DNA of 55,327 nucleotides, taken from positions 1-55,327 of the forward strand of contig CAKZTD010000065.1 in the NCBI GenBank assembly GCA_937921595.1, in the 5' to 3' direction. The notes under the pieces are model-generated. The model saw only the letters and a list, made by a program, of their open reading frames with translations, did no database searches and was not told the DNA's origin. The translations under genes and the position numbers were made by a program. This document shows positions 42,916 through 48,998 of the stretch, one piece after another (position 1 is the first letter of the stretch; the number at the start of each line of letters is the position of its first letter). Source of the DNA: an uncultured Saprospiraceae bacterium (GTDB taxonomy: Bacteria > Bacteroidota > Bacteroidia > Chitinophagales > Saprospiraceae).

Positions 42916-43005
42916 TTTAAAACTTATCACTTCTTTTCGGTGTGTATCTCCACCACACATTCTGATTTTTTAATTTTTTCTAACACTTCTAAATTTTTTT
43001 TCATC

Positions 43006-46000
43006 ATGCAAGGAAAAGGCATTATTAAGTTCTTTCTTGTGGTGGTGTCGCTAATGTGTATCCTTCAGTACTACTATCTCTACCCTACTTATCAGGTAGA
43101 ACAAGCAGCTGAAGCTCACGCGGAACAACAATCAAAGGGTGAAACCGATGAGAACACGCGTAAGGGTATATACAATAGCGCAGTAGCCACCTACCTCGAC
43201 TCTATGAGTAACGAGGAAGTATTCAAAATTCCGCTTATGCCGGGATTATCTTATGATCAACTAAAGCAAAAGCAAATAGCTTTGGGACTTGACCTCAAAG
43301 GAGGTATGAGTGTCGTGCTTCAGATCGACCTTCGGGATTTCATTCGTAATATTGCAAAAAATGCCAAAGATCCCACATTAATAGAAGCGTTAGAAAATAC
43401 TAAGACTGTTCAAGCTGGAGCAAAAGAAAATACCATCGCAATTTTTGCGAGAGAATTTGATAAAGTTGCTGCTAAAAAAGCTCAAGAAACTGGGCGTGCT
43501 AAAGAAACTTTAGCTGGTAAATTTTACGGCAAACTAGAAGACGTGAATATTGAGACTTCTAATGATAAAGTAGAAGCTATTCTTCGTCAAAAAGCAAATG
43601 AAACTGTTGAATTAACTTACTTACGTCTCAAAGATCGTATCGATGAGATTGGAGTAGTACAACCGAATGTAAATCTTGATGCAGCTAGAGACCTTATTTT
43701 AGTAGAACTTCCAGGTATTAGAAACCCGGAACGTGCTCGTAAATTTTTGACCGGAACTGCAAAATTAGAATTCTGGGATATATACCGTATAAACGATACA
43801 ACTCCTAAAGGTACTTTAATAGACATATTTGCTCAGGCAGATGCTAAATTAAAGAGAATATTAGGTAATACAGATACTGAAACAGTAATTGAAACACCAG
43901 CAGCTATTATTGATACAACTTATGTATTGGATAGCTTAGGTAATAATACAGGTGAAATTGCATCTATTCAAGAAATTCCGAATGATGCCATTAATGATCC
44001 ATTTGCAGATGCGGGACCTTTATTGAAAACTTTAAATTTGAATTTCGCAGCTGGTCAGTCTACATTATCTTTTGCGGTAATGGGATCTGCACCAAGAAAT
44101 CAGATGGATAAGATCAATGAGTATTTAGAACGCCCTGAGATTGCATCAATGTTTCCTAATGATTTGGAATTTAAATGGTCAAACGAACCATTAACTTTCG
44201 ATGAAGACTCAGAGATCAGCAGCCTTTATACTAATGATACTTACCAACTGTATGCGATCAAAAAGCAAAGAGGAAAAGATGTGGCGCCTATTGAAGGGGA
44301 CCGTGTAACTGATGCGAGTTCTGCTCCAGACCCAGCTACTGGTAAAATTGAAGTTTTACTAAGTATGGATGGAAAAGGCGCGAAGAAATGGGGCGAAATG
44401 ACAACTAAAGCATCTAATGAAGGTAATCGTGAGATTGCGATCGCACTAGATGGTAAAATCATTTCTTGTCCTACTGTAAATGATCCAATCCTAGGAGGAA
44501 GATCTTCTATCTCTGGAAACTTTTCTGCTACAGAAGCAGGAGATTTAGCTAAAATGCTTCAGGTTGGTAAACTTCCTGCAACAGTTGATATTATTCAAGA
44601 AAGTTTGGTAGGTCCTTCTTTAGGACAAGAAAATATCAATCGTAGTTTGAATGCAATGTTAATTGGTTTTGGTTTAGTATTCGTTTTCATGCTCCTTTAT
44701 TACGGTTCAGGTGGATTGGTTTCAATCCTTGCTTTGTTCTTAAACATCTTCTTTATTGGAGGTGCTTTAGCAACATTCGGTACTGTATTGACACTTCCTG
44801 GAATTGCCGGTATCATTTTGACGATCGGTATGGCCGTGGATGCCAACGTAATCATCTACGAGCGGATAAGGGAGGAACTTCGGGAAGGCAAGACTTTACT
44901 TATGTCTATCCGAGATGGTTTCCAACACTCCTACTCTGCTATTATTGATGCCAACGTAACTACAATCCTTGTAGCATCTGTCCTTGCTTATTTTGGTTTA
45001 GGACCGATCAAAGGATTCGCAATCGTTTTAATCATTGGTGTTGTTTCATCATTGTTTACTGCGGTATTAGTTGGACGTTTAATGATCGACTGGTGGACAG
45101 GAGGCGAAAGAAACTTAAGCTTCTGGACTGGTATTTCTAAAAATGCTTTTACAAACCTTAACATTGATTGGTTAGGTAAAAGAAAGATGGCTTATATCTT
45201 TTCTGGTATCGTTATCGTTTTAGGAATTGGTTCTATGGCTTTAAGAGGATTCGAGCTTGGTGTAGACTTCAAAGGTGGATATTCTTACAATGTCCAAGTT
45301 GATAAAAGCATCAATACCAATGTAGATGATATTCGTAACGCATTAGAAACTTCATTTGAAAATTCTTCAACTGTTGTAAAAGCTGTAAGTACAGCAAATG
45401 CTTATAATGTAACAACGAGTTATTTAATCAAGGAAAAACCTGAAGGTGCGGATAGTTTAGCTATGCGACAATTATTCGAAGGTGTAAATACCGCTCTAGG
45501 AGGAAAGCTTGATTATGCTAACTTCAAGAATCCGGATGGTACAGGTACTTATGTAAATAACTCCAGTAAAGTCGGACCAACGATTGCTGATGACATTAAG
45601 ACGAGTTCACTTTGGGCAACCATATTCTCGCTCTTATTAATCTTTGGTTATATCTTTATCCGATTTAGCAAATGGCAATATAGTATGGGAGCCGTCGCGG
45701 CACTTTTCCATGATGTTCTATTTGTTCTTGGATTGTTCTCTCTTTTCCATGGTATTCTACCTTTCTCTATGGAAATTGATCAAGCCTTCATTGCCGCTAT
45801 CTTAACGGTAATTGGATACTCGATTAATGATACGGTGGTAGTATTTGACCGGGTTAGAGAGTACATGGGTAACTATACTAAATTGAGTAAAACAGATATC
45901 ATCAATAAAGCGATCAATAGTACAATTAGTAGAACGGTGATTACTTCACTTACTACCCTATTTGTAATCCTTATTCTTTTCATCTTTGGTGGTGGAAGTA

Positions 46001-46149
46001 TCAAAGGATTTGCTTTCGCATTATTGATTGGTGTTATCGTAGGAACTTATTCTTCTGTATTTATCGCGACACCTATTATGTCCGACTTTACTGAAGAGTT
46101 GGTAACTAAAGAGACAACAAAGAAAAGCTTCTCTAAGGCTAACGCTTAA
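43006..46149 (+). CDS. secDF: Protein translocase SecDF fusion
   Basis: 1047 residues from the ATG at 43006; the in-frame GTG at 42940 would add 22 residues that read through the leader hairpin, so it is rejected. SecD and SecF are joined in one chain, as is usual in Bacteroidota. It uses the proton gradient to help pull proteins through SecYEG. The SecD half has an N-terminal helix, LGLDLKGGMSVVLQID, an extended periplasmic domain, and PGIAGIILTIGMAVDANVII followed by ERIREELREG. The SecF half has ELGVDFKGGYSYNVQVD and AAILTVIGYSINDTVVVFDR. Twelve membrane segments are expected. It stands alone and ends in a strong terminator (46171). Confidence 0.96.
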   Translation: MQGKGIIKFFLVVVSLMCILQYYYLYPTYQVEQAAEAHAEQQSKGETDENTRKGIYNSAVATYLDSMSNEEVFKIPLMPGLSYDQLKQKQIALGLDLKGGMSVVLQIDLRDFIRNIAKNAKDPTLIEALENTKTVQAGAKENTIAIFAREFDKVAAKKAQETGRAKETLAGKFYGKLEDVNIETSNDKVEAILRQKANETVELTYLRLKDRIDEIGVVQPNVNLDAARDLILVELPGIRNPERARKFLTGTAKLEFWDIYRINDTTPKGTLIDIFAQADAKLKRILGNTDTETVIETPAAIIDTTYVLDSLGNNTGEIASIQEIPNDAINDPFADAGPLLKTLNLNFAAGQSTLSFAVMGSAPRNQMDKINEYLERPEIASMFPNDLEFKWSNEPLTFDEDSEISSLYTNDTYQLYAIKKQRGKDVAPIEGDRVTDASSAPDPATGKIEVLLSMDGKGAKKWGEMTTKASNEGNREIAIALDGKIISCPTVNDPILGGRSSISGNFSATEAGDLAKMLQVGKLPATVDIIQESLVGPSLGQENINRSLNAMLIGFGLVFVFMLLYYGSGGLVSILALFLNIFFIGGALATFGTVLTLPGIAGIILTIGMAVDANVIIYERIREELREGKTLLMSIRDGFQHSYSAIIDANVTTILVASVLAYFGLGPIKGFAIVLIIGVVSSLFTAVLVGRLMIDWWTGGERNLSFWTGISKNAFTNLNIDWLGKRKMAYIFSGIVIVLGIGSMALRGFELGVDFKGGYSYNVQVDKSINTNVDDIRNALETSFENSSTVVKAVSTANAYNVTTSYLIKEKPEGADSLAMRQLFEGVNTALGGKLDYANFKNPDGTGTYVNNSSKVGPTIADDIKTSSLWATIFSLLLIFGYIFIRFSKWQYSMGAVAALFHDVLFVLGLFSLFHGILPFSMEIDQAFIAAILTVIGYSINDTVVVFDRVREYMGNYTKLSKTDIINKAINSTISRTVITSLTTLFVILILFIFGGGSIKGFAFALLIGVIVGTYSSVFIATPIMSDFTEELVTKETTKKSFSKANA

Positions 46150-46208: not shown

Positions 46209-46305
46209 AATTTTAGAGTTTTAATTTTGAATTTGGCCAAAAATCGGAAATTAAGATCTGTTAAATTTTCACTTTAAATTCTAAAAGTCCTTTTATTCAT
46301 TGGCT

Positions 46306-46323
46306 TTGGTACGGAGTTTGCAA
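46306..46323 (+). promoter_or_regulatory. Sigma-54-type -24/-12 promoter, copy 1
   Basis: TTGGTACG-N4-TTGCA; GG at 46308-46309 and GC at 46320-46321, with exactly 10 nt between. It differs from the consensus TTGGCACG-N4-TTGCA by one base (T for C). Confidence 0.75.
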
Positions 46324-46332
46324 TTGTTTTGA

Positions 46333-46404
46333 ATGTAAGTTTTGGTTAAAAATTGTAAGATTCGTTTCCTAAGTCAATGTCCTCAAACATTGACTTATTT
46401 TTTT
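46333..46404 (+). ncRNA. Putative sigma-54-dependent small RNA, copy 1
   Basis: About 72 nt from the predicted start (12 nt after the -12 GC) to the end of the T-run. The first 38 nt are A/U-rich and probably open, with GTAAG twice and TTCGTTTCCTAAG at the end; a terminator follows (AAGTCAATG 46371-46379 with CATTGACTT 46388-46396, then A and T7). The 5' end reads ATG-TAA, so it cannot code. Confidence 0.7.
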
Positions 46405-46483
46405 GCCCATACCCCAAGTTCTCTATTCTTCCTTTAAATATTACCCTTTATTTTATCTGTTAAATTTTCATTTTAAAATGGCT

Positions 46484-46501
46484 TTGGTACAAAGTTTGCA
46501 A
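46484..46501 (+). promoter_or_regulatory. Sigma-54-type -24/-12 promoter, copy 2
   Basis: TTGGTACA-N4-TTGCA; GG at 46486-46487 and GC at 46498-46499, with exactly 10 nt between. Confidence 0.72.
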
Positions 46502-46510
46502 TTATCCTAA

Positions 46511-46582
46511 ATGTAAGTTTTGGTTAAAAATTGTAAGATTCGTTTCCTAAGTCAATGTCCTCAAACATTGACTTATTTTTTT
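46511..46582 (+). ncRNA. Putative sigma-54-dependent small RNA, copy 2
   Basis: The predicted RNA is identical to copy 1 over all 72 nt, although the promoter spacer and the bases between -12 and +1 differ (ATCCTA in place of GTTTTG). Terminator arms are 46549-46557 and 46566-46574, followed by A and T7 to 46582. Confidence 0.7.
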
Positions 46583-46661
46583 GCCCATACCCCAAATTCT
46601 CTATTCTTCCTTCAAATATTACCCTTTATTTTATCTGTTAAATTTTCATTTTAAAATGGCT

Positions 46662-46679
46662 TTGGTACAAAGTTTGCAA
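46662..46679 (+). promoter_or_regulatory. Sigma-54-type -24/-12 promoter, copy 3
   Basis: Same as copy 2; GG at 46664-46665 and GC at 46676-46677, 10 nt between. Confidence 0.72.
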
Positions 46680-46688
46680 TTATCCTAA

Positions 46689-46759
46689 TTGTAAGTTTTG
46701 GTTAAAAATTGTAAGATTCGTTTCCTAAGTCAGTGTCCTCAAACATTGACTTTTTTTTT
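46689..46759 (+). ncRNA. Putative sigma-54-dependent small RNA, copy 3
   Basis: Almost identical to the other two. The left stem arm is AAGTCAGTG (46727-46735) against CATTGACTT (46744-46752): the A-to-G change turns an A-U pair into a G-U pair and keeps the stem. The A after the stem is lost, so the T-run is continuous. The first base is T in place of A. Confidence 0.68.
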
Positions 46760-46830
46760 GCCCTGAACTGAAATCCTACTAGAAATGACAAATCAATTTC
46801 AATTCATCCGATCTATCCTTCAAGACAGCA

Positions 46831-47003: not shown

Positions 47004-48998
47004 ATGACTAAAATACTCACTTCTACCCTATTCTTCTCTCTTCTTATCGTCAGCTGTACCTTTGTGCAAAAAATAAAAGATGGGACAACCGCATTTGAAA
47101 GAAAGCAATATTCTGTAGCCATTCCAATGCTCAAGAGCGATCATAAAAAAGCAAAGAGCCGAGTCGAGAAAGGTAAGATTGCTTATTTGGTTGCGGAATC
47201 ATATACCAATTTAAATGAAAATAAAAATGCGATTGAATGGTACCTCACTTCTTATGAAGATGGATATGGAGTGGATGCGCTAAAAGGTTATGCTTTTGGT
47301 TTGAAACAGAATGAACAATATAAAGAAGCCATGGAGGCTTTTAAAAATCTAGGGCTAGAAATCGGAAGTCCATACGAATACCGAAGGGAAATCACTGCTT
47401 GTAAAATTGCTGCTGATTGGGCAGATGCAAATAAGAGTTTGGATTATACGGTGAATATTGCTGATTTTAATACCGCTAAATCTGATTATTCGCCAACGAT
47501 TTATCAAGATGATTTCTTGGTGATCACTTCCGATCGGAGTGCTAGTGTAGGTGATGAAACGTACAATTGGACTGGTAGTAATTTCTCTGATTTGTTCATC
47601 GTCAATACGCAATCTAATAGTGTTGAATCTTTTGAAGCTCCAATCAATACCAAAGATAATGAAGGAACAGTAAGCTTTACCGAAGATTATACGGAAATGT
47701 ATTTTACTCGGTGTGCTAATAGTGATAAATATGCTGACTCTTTTTGCTTCATTATGAAAAGCACATATGACAATGGAAGTTGGTCAGTACCTGAAGCTAT
47801 TAAATTATTTGAAGAAACAAATGTAAACTACGGTGATCCAGCGATTTCAAAAGATGGCAGTACACTTTACTTTTCGGCTAATCATCCGGACGGATGGGGC
47901 GGCCATGACATTTATGTTTCTGAAAGAGAACCTGATGGTTGGTCTGTTCCAAAATTATTGAGTAGAACAATCAACACTTTGGGTAATGAACGTTTTCCAT
48001 TTATCGATGAAGACACCATGTATTTTTCATCTGATTATCTACCTGGAATGGGAGGGCTTGATATTTTTAGAAGTTATAAAATTGACAATAAGGCTTGGAG
48101 TCCAGCTCATAATTTAAAAGCACCGGTTAACTCCGGTAGCGATGATTTCAGTTATGTGGTTGATCCTAGAGCTCAAAAAGATAAAGACATTTTACAAATT
48201 GGCTATTTTACTTCTACTCGAGAAAACGGAAAAGGCGGAGACGATATTTATCAGTTTATAAAAAGAGTTCCACCTCCACCTCCTCCAATCGATACAGCGG
48301 CACCACCTCCACCTCCAATCGTTTACAAAATGATTCTTGAAGGTTATATTCTAGAAAAGATTTACGAAAACAAAGACAATCCGAATAGTCGTGTTTTAGG
48401 TCGAAAACCATTGAATGAAGCTTTGGTAAACATTTCCTTTGGGGCCAAAAGTGAAACGGTGACTGTCGGAGATGATGGGTTTTTCACGATTGTTTTGGAG
48501 GAAGAAATGGATTATAATTTTGCTGCTTCGAAAGCAGAGTATTTGAATAATTCGACCACCTTCACCTCGAAAGGAATTGGAAAAGATCCAAGTAATCCGG
48601 TTACCACTTATACGGTAGAAATCGTTTTAGATAAGATTTTCAAAAACAAAGAAATCACTTTAGAAAATATTTATTACGATTATGAAAAGTGGGACATTCG
48701 ATCAGATGCTCAACCAACTTTAGATGAGTTAGCTGGAATACTAGTTGCAAATCCTCAAATAAGAATTCAATTAGCTTCTCACACAGATTGCCGAGGTGGA
48801 ACTAGCTATAATGAAAATCTTTCTCAAAAGAGAGCCCAGTCTGCAGTGAATTATTTGATCTCTAAAGGAATTCCTGAAGATCGTTTAACGGCAAAAGGTT
48901 ACGGAGAGAATTCTCTAGCGATTGATTGTGCCTGTACTAGGTGTTCGGAAGAGGAGCATCAAGCGAATCGGAGGACGACATTTTTGATATTGGAATAG
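47004..48998 (+). CDS. PorE-like lipoprotein: TPR, PD40 propeller, regulatory-like domain and OmpA C-terminus
   Basis: 664 residues. The lipoprotein signal ends in LLIVSC (Cys18). Then come TPR-like helices (about 25-130), a WD40-like/PD40 propeller (about 150-410; DPAISKDGSTLYFSANHPDG, GNERFPFIDEDTMYFSSDYL), a Pro-rich linker (RVPPPPPPIDTAAPPPPPI), a carboxypeptidase-regulatory-like domain (about 440-540), and an OmpA domain (about 550-664; NIYYDYEKWDIRSDA, LASHTDCRGGTSYNENLSQK, RRTTF) that binds peptidoglycan. This order is that of PorE, the T9SS component that ties the machine to the cell wall. Similar proteins also occur as several copies per genome, so the T9SS role is probable, not certain. 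It starts 245 nt after the small-RNA array. Confidence 0.85.
   Translation: MTKILTSTLFFSLLIVSCTFVQKIKDGTTAFERKQYSVAIPMLKSDHKKAKSRVEKGKIAYLVAESYTNLNENKNAIEWYLTSYEDGYGVDALKGYAFGLKQNEQYKEAMEAFKNLGLEIGSPYEYRREITACKIAADWADANKSLDYTVNIADFNTAKSDYSPTIYQDDFLVITSDRSASVGDETYNWTGSNFSDLFIVNTQSNSVESFEAPINTKDNEGTVSFTEDYTEMYFTRCANSDKYADSFCFIMKSTYDNGSWSVPEAIKLFEETNVNYGDPAISKDGSTLYFSANHPDGWGGHDIYVSEREPDGWSVPKLLSRTINTLGNERFPFIDEDTMYFSSDYLPGMGGLDIFRSYKIDNKAWSPAHNLKAPVNSGSDDFSYVVDPRAQKDKDILQIGYFTSTRENGKGGDDIYQFIKRVPPPPPPIDTAAPPPPPIVYKMILEGYILEKIYENKDNPNSRVLGRKPLNEALVNISFGAKSETVTVGDDGFFTIVLEEEMDYNFAASKAEYLNNSTTFTSKGIGKDPSNPVTTYTVEIVLDKIFKNKEITLENIYYDYEKWDIRSDAQPTLDELAGILVANPQIRIQLASHTDCRGGTSYNENLSQKRAQSAVNYLISKGIPEDRLTAKGYGENSLAIDCACTRCSEEEHQANRRTTFLILE

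Follow-up and report, generated by a model that had tools for sequence, protein, structure and literature searches.

Genes and promoters in the three-unit array

The window analyzed here is a stretch of 55,327 nucleotides (contig CAKZTD010000065.1) from the genome of an uncultured Saprospiraceae bacterium, in which three tandem units lie between secDF and a gene for a PD40/OmpA-domain protein (Table 1). An earlier note on this DNA had described these units as an array of sigma-54-type small RNA (sRNA) genes; our analysis confirms the observation of three tandem genes and supports this interpretation. Both intervals between neighboring units are 178 bp, and each unit has a -24/-12 promoter in which GG and GC lie 10 nt apart, recurring at +178 and +356. 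All three share the sequence TGGTAC-N5-TTGCA, and the pattern TGG[CT]AC-N5-TTGC[AT] has just three matches on both strands of the 55-kb window, all of which are the sRNA copies. When the C of GC is taken as position -12, transcription is predicted to start at 46333, 46511, and 46689, giving RNAs of 71-72 nt up to the end of the T run. The segment had rightly been called noncoding: it begins ATG-TAA in copies 1 and 2 and TTG-TAA in copy 3, and the ORFs of at least 50 amino acids all lie outside the RNA, so a coding reading was rejected. As proposed, an intrinsic terminator closes each unit with a stem of 11 bp (copies 1 and 2) or 10 bp (copy 3) followed by seven T, the T run of copy 3 comprising nine T of which two lie inside the stem. 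Folding of 75-nt stretches gave MFE z-scores of -2.75, -2.75, and -2.25 for copies 1, 2, and 3, with the 5' part unpaired in the centroid fold of all three. By sequence, ORF list, and folds, these are short units with promoter and intrinsic terminator and without ORF, and they appear to be genuine genes for a regulatory RNA of 72 bases.

Table 1. Features of the sRNA array and its conserved neighbors in the window.
Feature	Coordinates	Strand	Basis and remarks
secDF, conserved upstream neighbor (context II)	43003..46149	+	Pfam SecD/SecF; neighbor clusters
Promoter copy 1, sigma-54-type (TGGTACGGAGTTTGCA)	46307..46322	+	GG 46308-46309, GC 46320-46321; kept in relatives
sRNA copy 1, ~72 nt	46333..46404	+	conserved core 46334-46367; covariance-model match 46334-46402, E 3.7e-11
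Intrinsic terminator copy 1	46370..46404	+	stem 46370-46380/46387-46397, T7; stem covaries across family
Promoter copy 2, sigma-54-type	46485..46500	+	pattern match
sRNA copy 2	46511..46582	+	core 46512-46545; fold and covariance-model match
Intrinsic terminator copy 2	46548..46582	+	repeat spacing and fold
Promoter copy 3, sigma-54-type	46663..46678	+	pattern match
sRNA copy 3	46689..46759	+	core 46690-46723; fold and covariance-model match
Intrinsic terminator copy 3	46727..46759	+	one A-U pair now G-U
PD40/OmpA-domain gene, conserved downstream neighbor (context II)	47004..48998	+	neighbor clusters

The differences between copies had been read as a sign of selection on the promoter core and the RNA. 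Copies 1 and 2 indeed encode identical RNAs and have just two base differences 3' of the terminator, but their substitutions (19 of 178 positions altogether) also fall upstream of the promoter. Since both copies are young, selection is not demonstrable from this pair by itself, though it is seen in relatives. The stem change of copy 3 that turns an A-U into a G-U pair is real but not the sole one, because A has become T both at the presumed +1 position and at the final base of the 3' stem arm. An additional 23-bp element is repeated 5' of each promoter (46256-46278, 46455-46477, and 46633-46655), and its different distance in copy 1 indicates that the flank of the first unit was rearranged. 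The same 8.0-Mb genome (G000) holds a fourth sRNA copy on contig C241 and, as the sigma-54 reading demands, encodes RpoN (G000:C222; PF04552, E 9.8e-52).

A widespread but patchy RNA family

Of 148 related genomes, 46 gave matches in a BLAST search with copy 1 (E <=0.01), and most of these matches cover query positions 34-67, i.e., the 5' end of the RNA. Several weak matches within the family fall in unrelated sequence. Six of the 46 genomes belong to other families; the core is absent from their matched loci even when 6 edits are allowed, and they were therefore counted as chance. A pattern made from the conserved core found at least 118 stretches in named genomes; among the 80 matches listed, 71 are labeled Saprospiraceae, two Saprospirales, three Chitinophagales, three Bacteroidetes, and one Portibacter marinus, which NCBI places in the Haliscomenobacteraceae and which carries the sRNA with a promoter of the second class described below (class B). 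We call the window's family group (f1) Saprospiraceae after these labels. The complement pattern (<=3 mismatches) matched in 80 of 299 family genomes and 37 of 112 genera, against three matches in total for a reversed control pattern, and the 80 genomes are an undercount because this pattern misses the spacer length of the window's own copies. Judged by its genes, the sRNA is widespread but patchy in the family.

Two traits mark the RNA family: its 34-nt 5' end, which is nearly invariant and left unpaired in the centroid fold, and a terminator that covaries. From 128 loci we obtained 149 distinct core matches, four of which are antisense-type sites without promoter or terminator; the other 145 form our set of units, and a terminator follows directly 3' of the core in 139 of them. 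An alignment of 58 units, hand-picked from 89 diverse ones, has 21 invariant columns, although this invariance is partly by construction because the units were collected with the core pattern. RNAalifold reports 13 pairs: all six terminator pairs show double compensatory changes, and the seven pairs of a weak 5' stem are nearly unvarying and hence little informative. The RNA contains TGTAAG twice. The earlier note had directed attention to the open stretch TTTCCTAAG and overlooked the main conserved part, the 34 nt before it, along with the second promoter class and the targets.

The proposed covariance-model search of related genomes was fruitful, with matches of our model (R1) in 32 of 298 genomes sampled from the order and in 4 of 296 sampled from the phylum. 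All of these belong to f1, and the sampled genomes outside it gave none, though the counts come without a stated share of f1 in either sample. Neither the window nor 11 relatives gave an Rfam match at gathering score, in agreement with the earlier note, which could name no sRNA family with this sequence; the only Rfam matches are at chance level (E 6.4 and 7.2), and a known RNA family was rejected on these grounds. A mobile origin was likewise set aside since viral contigs held no exact match to the core pattern.

Analysis of neighbor clusters revealed two conserved gene orders, mqn-sRNA-ald (context I) and secDF-sRNA-OmpA (context II). At several class-B loci of context I (e.g., L140, L149, and L168), a gene for a conserved protein of ~86 amino acids (MNITFEELRRIKHSLPTGSIAKIAGEL...) lies 3' of ald, and by its look only this protein might bind DNA.

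Two classes of promoter in front of the same RNA

The sigma-54-type promoter (class A) precedes 103 of the 145 units, with its first G 23-29 nt 5' of the core. Our classifier demanded at least 7 of 9 consensus bases, and the remaining 42 units all lie below this threshold. The expectation that the -24/-12 bases would not drift in relatives was borne out for GG and the G at -13 (103 of 103 each, which is partly by construction because the classifier favors those bases) but not for the C at -12, which drifts (C 58, A 24, T 16, G 5; n=103). The rpoN gene is found in 144 of 148 relatives, including all 126 near-complete ones.

Among the 42 units without a class-A promoter, all but one have a promoter of sigma-A type preceded by a palindrome (class B): 35 have TAnnTTTG a few bases 5' of the core, after ACATATT-N-AATATGT, and six show the same layout with TAnnTTTA, leaving one (L102) unassigned to either layout. 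Passages in two studies give TAnnTTTG as the sigma-A -7 box (PMC7366714; PMC9723704). In class-B units such as L032, L035, and L152, the palindrome sits immediately 5' of this box, which suggests a site for a regulator of the class-B sRNA promoter. With either promoter class, transcription is predicted to begin no more than a few bases from the first base of the core. Loss of rpoN, considered as the origin of the second class, was rejected because the gene is nearly universal.

At the mqn-sRNA-ald locus, the units beside 33 ald neighbors comprise 17 of class A, 14 of class B, and two unlabelled. The promoter label needs four changes on the tree of alanine dehydrogenases (31 proteins), with a single origin being compatible, and one on the tree of mqn proteins (also 31). 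The simplest reading would be one exchange of promoter class at this locus. The sRNA offers a clean case in which the start and sequence of an RNA are kept while the promoter class differs at an orthologous locus.

Complements of the core at gene starts

Complements of the core were seen just 5' of start codons. Rows of the complement search with at most one mismatch were accepted as sRNA genes uninspected, except two, which together with 15 rows of 2-3 mismatches make 17 inspected ones. Four of these are sRNA copies (L045, L242, and L245) or an sRNA-like variant (L239), and 13 are not sRNA genes: five sites lie in sense orientation <=60 nt before an ATG (L235, L241, L247, L248, and L249), one is 85 nt before a possible ATG or within a longer ORF (L236), five are inside ORFs (L234, L238, L240, L244, and L246), and two are in neither position (L237 and L243). 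At L247 (G077:C104, minus strand), the gene whose ATG follows 48 nt after the site encodes a TviB-like nucleotide sugar dehydrogenase (surface polysaccharide). Elsewhere in this genome, L047 (G077:C286) has tandem degenerate ~28-nt repeats of the core complement at ~945-1115 and 1710-1760, i.e., ~60-235 nt and 55-105 nt 5' of two minus-strand ORFs that are small, lipoprotein-like, and paralogous; the repeats are perhaps a multi-site target or a sponge.

Two gene families came out of these searches. Family A consists of the orthologues at L241 and L249, proteins of ~745 amino acids with a type A sorting domain of the type IX secretion system (T9SS), and has homologues in 13 of 249 genomes. Family B, found via a weak BLAST match in G004 (L252), comprises proteins of ~1012 amino acids with a T9SS type B sorting domain, one of which (L298) also has SprB and Ig-like repeats; its orthologues occur in all five genomes of the window's genus, plus others. 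All four members tested have the T9SS sorting domain TIGR04131 or TIGR04183, and the two families have no Pfam domain in common. Because ald adjoins many sRNA copies, alanine dehydrogenase was considered as a target as well, and the ald start regions at L169 and L117 have 20 and 19 complement-covered bases, as two single genes and not a family.

The window's own genome has a family-B gene with CTTAGGAAAAGAATC at -26 to -12, complementary save one base to GATTCGTTTCCTAAG. The latter holds TTTCCTAAG, which had been put forward as a candidate for mRNA pairing, and this idea fits in silico with the start region of a T9SS cargo gene. By duplex energy, this gene ranks 3 of 627 own-genome start regions, its stretch having been included on purpose. 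Another locus of this genome, L288 (C11, 1222-7137, minus strand), encodes a 1972-aa protein with a signal-like start, carries CGAATCTTACAA directly 3' of the ATG, and shows no T9SS domain with NCBIfam. The duplexes of these two candidate own-genome targets are moderate, at -22.9 kcal (5 of 300 shuffles as good) and, for L288, -24.2 kcal (1 of 300). Across the 627 start regions, duplex energies gave no genome-wide enrichment of complement over shuffles: 29 starts reach -18 kcal or better (shuffle mean 28.8), 17 reach -20 (mean 9.2, 0 of 24 shuffles as high), and one reaches -22 (mean 2.3). If the RNA acts by pairing, it would therefore have few targets, and a global regulon is unsupported by these start regions. 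Of 596 gene starts from relatives' loci, six reach -24 kcal versus 0-2 for reversed and 12 shuffled cores, two of the six being sRNA genes read backwards.

The test of both families by duplex energy (start region -70 to +20 against 500 dinucleotide-shuffled sRNAs, counting those as good) was mixed. With the core alone, the closer homologues of family A gave counts of 12 (G224), 0 (G179), 0 (G303), 3 (G164), 347 (G062), 409 (G255), and 172 (G013), i.e., four of seven at 12 or fewer, and four distant homologues gave 21, 79, 197, and 245. For family B, the core plus CCTAAG gave 2 (G003), 2 (G000), 3 (G002), 2 (G001), 0 (G038), and 44 (G069), so that five of six are at 3 or fewer; for the core alone, the same genes in this order gave 10, 97, 22, 21, 1, and 22. 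Among 13 further family-B orthologues compared with 300 shuffles, just four had 9 or fewer as good, either with the core alone (G156, G167, G280, and G219) or with core plus CCTAAG (G156, G167, G229, and G219).

Recurrent complement in the start regions of these unlinked genes was seen by coverage, i.e., the number of bases under 8-mers complementary to the core, counted with discovery genes excluded and 1000 shuffles over a region of -120 to +45 that was chosen post hoc after sites farther upstream and past the ATG had been seen. Family A has 124 covered bases in 11 genes (shuffled mean 29.3, maximum 88) and family B has 418 in 19 genes (mean 79.0, maximum 299), with 0 of 1000 shuffles as high in either case and again for 9-mers (79 and 329 bases), although T runs supply part of the 8-mer coverage, e.g., in G221, G081, G326, and G228. 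At least 23 bases are covered in 12 of 19 family-B genes versus 5 of 1117 control genes (start regions containing an sRNA gene dropped), the top control being the window's own secDF with 31 bases from T runs. Against controls, Mann-Whitney tests gave p values of 4e-14 (family B) and 4e-4 (family A, five non-discovery genes whose genomes carry the sRNA), with orthologues being non-independent in both comparisons. The controls have similar mean sense and antisense coverage (2.79 and 2.90). Among orthologues, the sites move between about -120 and +35, use differing parts of the core, and are often split into one part 5' and another 3' of the ATG.

Seven of the 13 family-A genomes carry the sRNA (G013, G255, G164, G303, G224, G283, and G075), and no sRNA was detected at E 0.05 in the other six (G179, G062, G202, G044, G222, and G072). 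Strong sites are present in five of the seven, two of them being discovery genes, whereas the gene has 0 (four genomes) or 8 (one) covered bases in five of the six; the sixth, G179 (91% complete), has a strong site. By 8-mer coverage, sites are missing from the family-A genes of G255 and G013 although both genomes carry the sRNA; for family B, G169 and G229 lack sites as well, and G285 and G069 have just 8 covered bases. In G352 and G056, a site lies 5' of a secreted-protein gene without a detected sRNA, which cautions against over-reading single sites.

Proposed mechanism and alternatives

Computation establishes the anatomy of these genes, the RNA family, its two promoter classes, and the recurrence of core complement around the start codons of genes for T9SS cargo. 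On this basis, we consider it likely that the array encodes a trans-acting sRNA that is made from a sigma-54 promoter and blocks translation of selected secreted surface proteins. Each unit would be a gene for a base-pairing RNA of ~72 nt, transcribed from the -24/-12 promoter by RpoN holoenzyme with an enhancer-binding activator and ending at the intrinsic terminator, as we infer from the DNA. The largely unpaired 5' ~34-40 nt would pair before, across, or just past the start codon of a few mRNAs, chiefly those for large T9SS cargo proteins; this pairing would block 30S binding and thus lower synthesis of the target, and multiple gene copies would give a stronger dose. Flavobacteria, which belong to the same phylum, are described in part of one study as having no Shine-Dalgarno sequences (PMC9723704). 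The sigma-54 regulon of Flavobacterium psychrophilum (PMC9723704) suggests by analogy that stress on the envelope or on secretion may be the signal. The inferred elements of this scheme are expression, the use of RpoN for transcription, an effect of repression and not of activation, and the signal.

Several other readings deserve weighing. The RNA could be a decoy that titrates an RNA-binding protein via its repeated TGTAAG, with complement in mRNAs being secondary. Its 5' end is more invariant than pairing with two variable targets needs (an invariance that is partly by construction), but the enrichment of core complement in both families, set against similar sense and antisense coverage in the 1117 controls (where alone sense was counted), makes us regard a decoy as unlikely. 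Somewhat harder still to believe is that the antisense sites are functionless fragments of the same dispersed repeat that landed in 5' regions: sRNA genes do duplicate in tandem and L047 shows tandem degenerate copies without promoter or terminator, yet the sites lack promoter and terminator, vary in place, length, and core part among orthologues, recur in two gene families, and are absent from five of six homologues in genomes without a detected sRNA.

The remaining alternatives concern the genes themselves. That class-A promoters are sites of another factor might be argued from the C at -12, kept in just 58 of 103 units; we think this improbable given GG and the -13 G at near-constant spacing to the core in 103 distinct units (partly by construction) and the presence of rpoN in nearly all relatives. 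We give the least credence to the units being leaders or attenuators of the downstream gene, because the terminator right after the core, the tandem arrangement, and the several gene contexts speak against it, even though conserved downstream genes (OmpA type or ald) lie on the same strand.

We return to the base-pairing sRNA, which probably lowers the production of large surface proteins. Extending this reading, we tentatively suggest a brake on T9SS: under stress on the envelope or secretion route, sigma-54 would turn on a dose-amplified sRNA that stops T9SS surface cargo from being translated. One branch would have seen its input rewired between sigma-54 and a palindrome-controlled sigma-A promoter, with the RNA's first bases and output kept. 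This fuller scheme is more doubtful than its core. The base-pairing sRNA itself would be a regulatory RNA found widely in a large family of bacteria that are for the most part uncultured, and it would connect sigma-54 with T9SS cargo through translation.

Comparison with known systems

Base-pairing and sigma-54-driven sRNAs are known kinds; what appears to be new is this sRNA family together with the targets predicted for it and the exchange of promoters. A literature search for Saprospiraceae and sRNA as whole words returned no paper, and broader searches, judged by title and abstract start, showed no such RNA among the matches listed. The Qrr RNAs of Vibrio are short trans-acting RNAs encoded in several copies under sigma-54 promoters; they are controlled by LuxO and target a quorum regulator. 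The window array resembles them as a multi-copy short RNA with sigma-54 promoters but differs in having a single strong hairpin (the terminator), another gene context, and other predicted targets, and neither it nor 11 relatives match a known RNA family model such as would mark a Qrr. In E. coli, the envelope-stress sRNAs MicA and RybB are driven by SigmaE and block start regions of surface-protein mRNAs. The proposed logic of alternative sigma factor, sRNA, and blocked surface-protein start regions is alike, with the difference that the sigma factor is SigmaE there and would be sigma-54 here, and that the window sRNA has no Rfam match.

Within the Bacteroidota, GibS of Bacteroides thetaiotaomicron is described in passages of one study as a conserved, mostly unfolded intergenic sRNA with seed regions (PMC7366714). 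Compared by description and not by sequence, the window sRNA is likewise conserved, intergenic, and largely unfolded; GibS was shown in seven Bacteroides species. Another RNA of this phylum is Rfp36, a putative regulatory RNA of F. psychrophilum that part of another study lists under a sigma-54 (SM4) promoter and assigns to a co-expression cluster that includes the sprB gliding operon and exported proteins (PMC9723704). This likeness as a Bacteroidota RNA with a sigma-54 promoter is again one of description, and model R1 has no match outside f1 in the sampled phylum. The sigma-54 regulon given there comprises chaperones, envelope stress, gliding genes, exported proteins, and Rfp36 itself (PMC9723704), and by analogy, control of surface proteins under envelope stress would fit this content.
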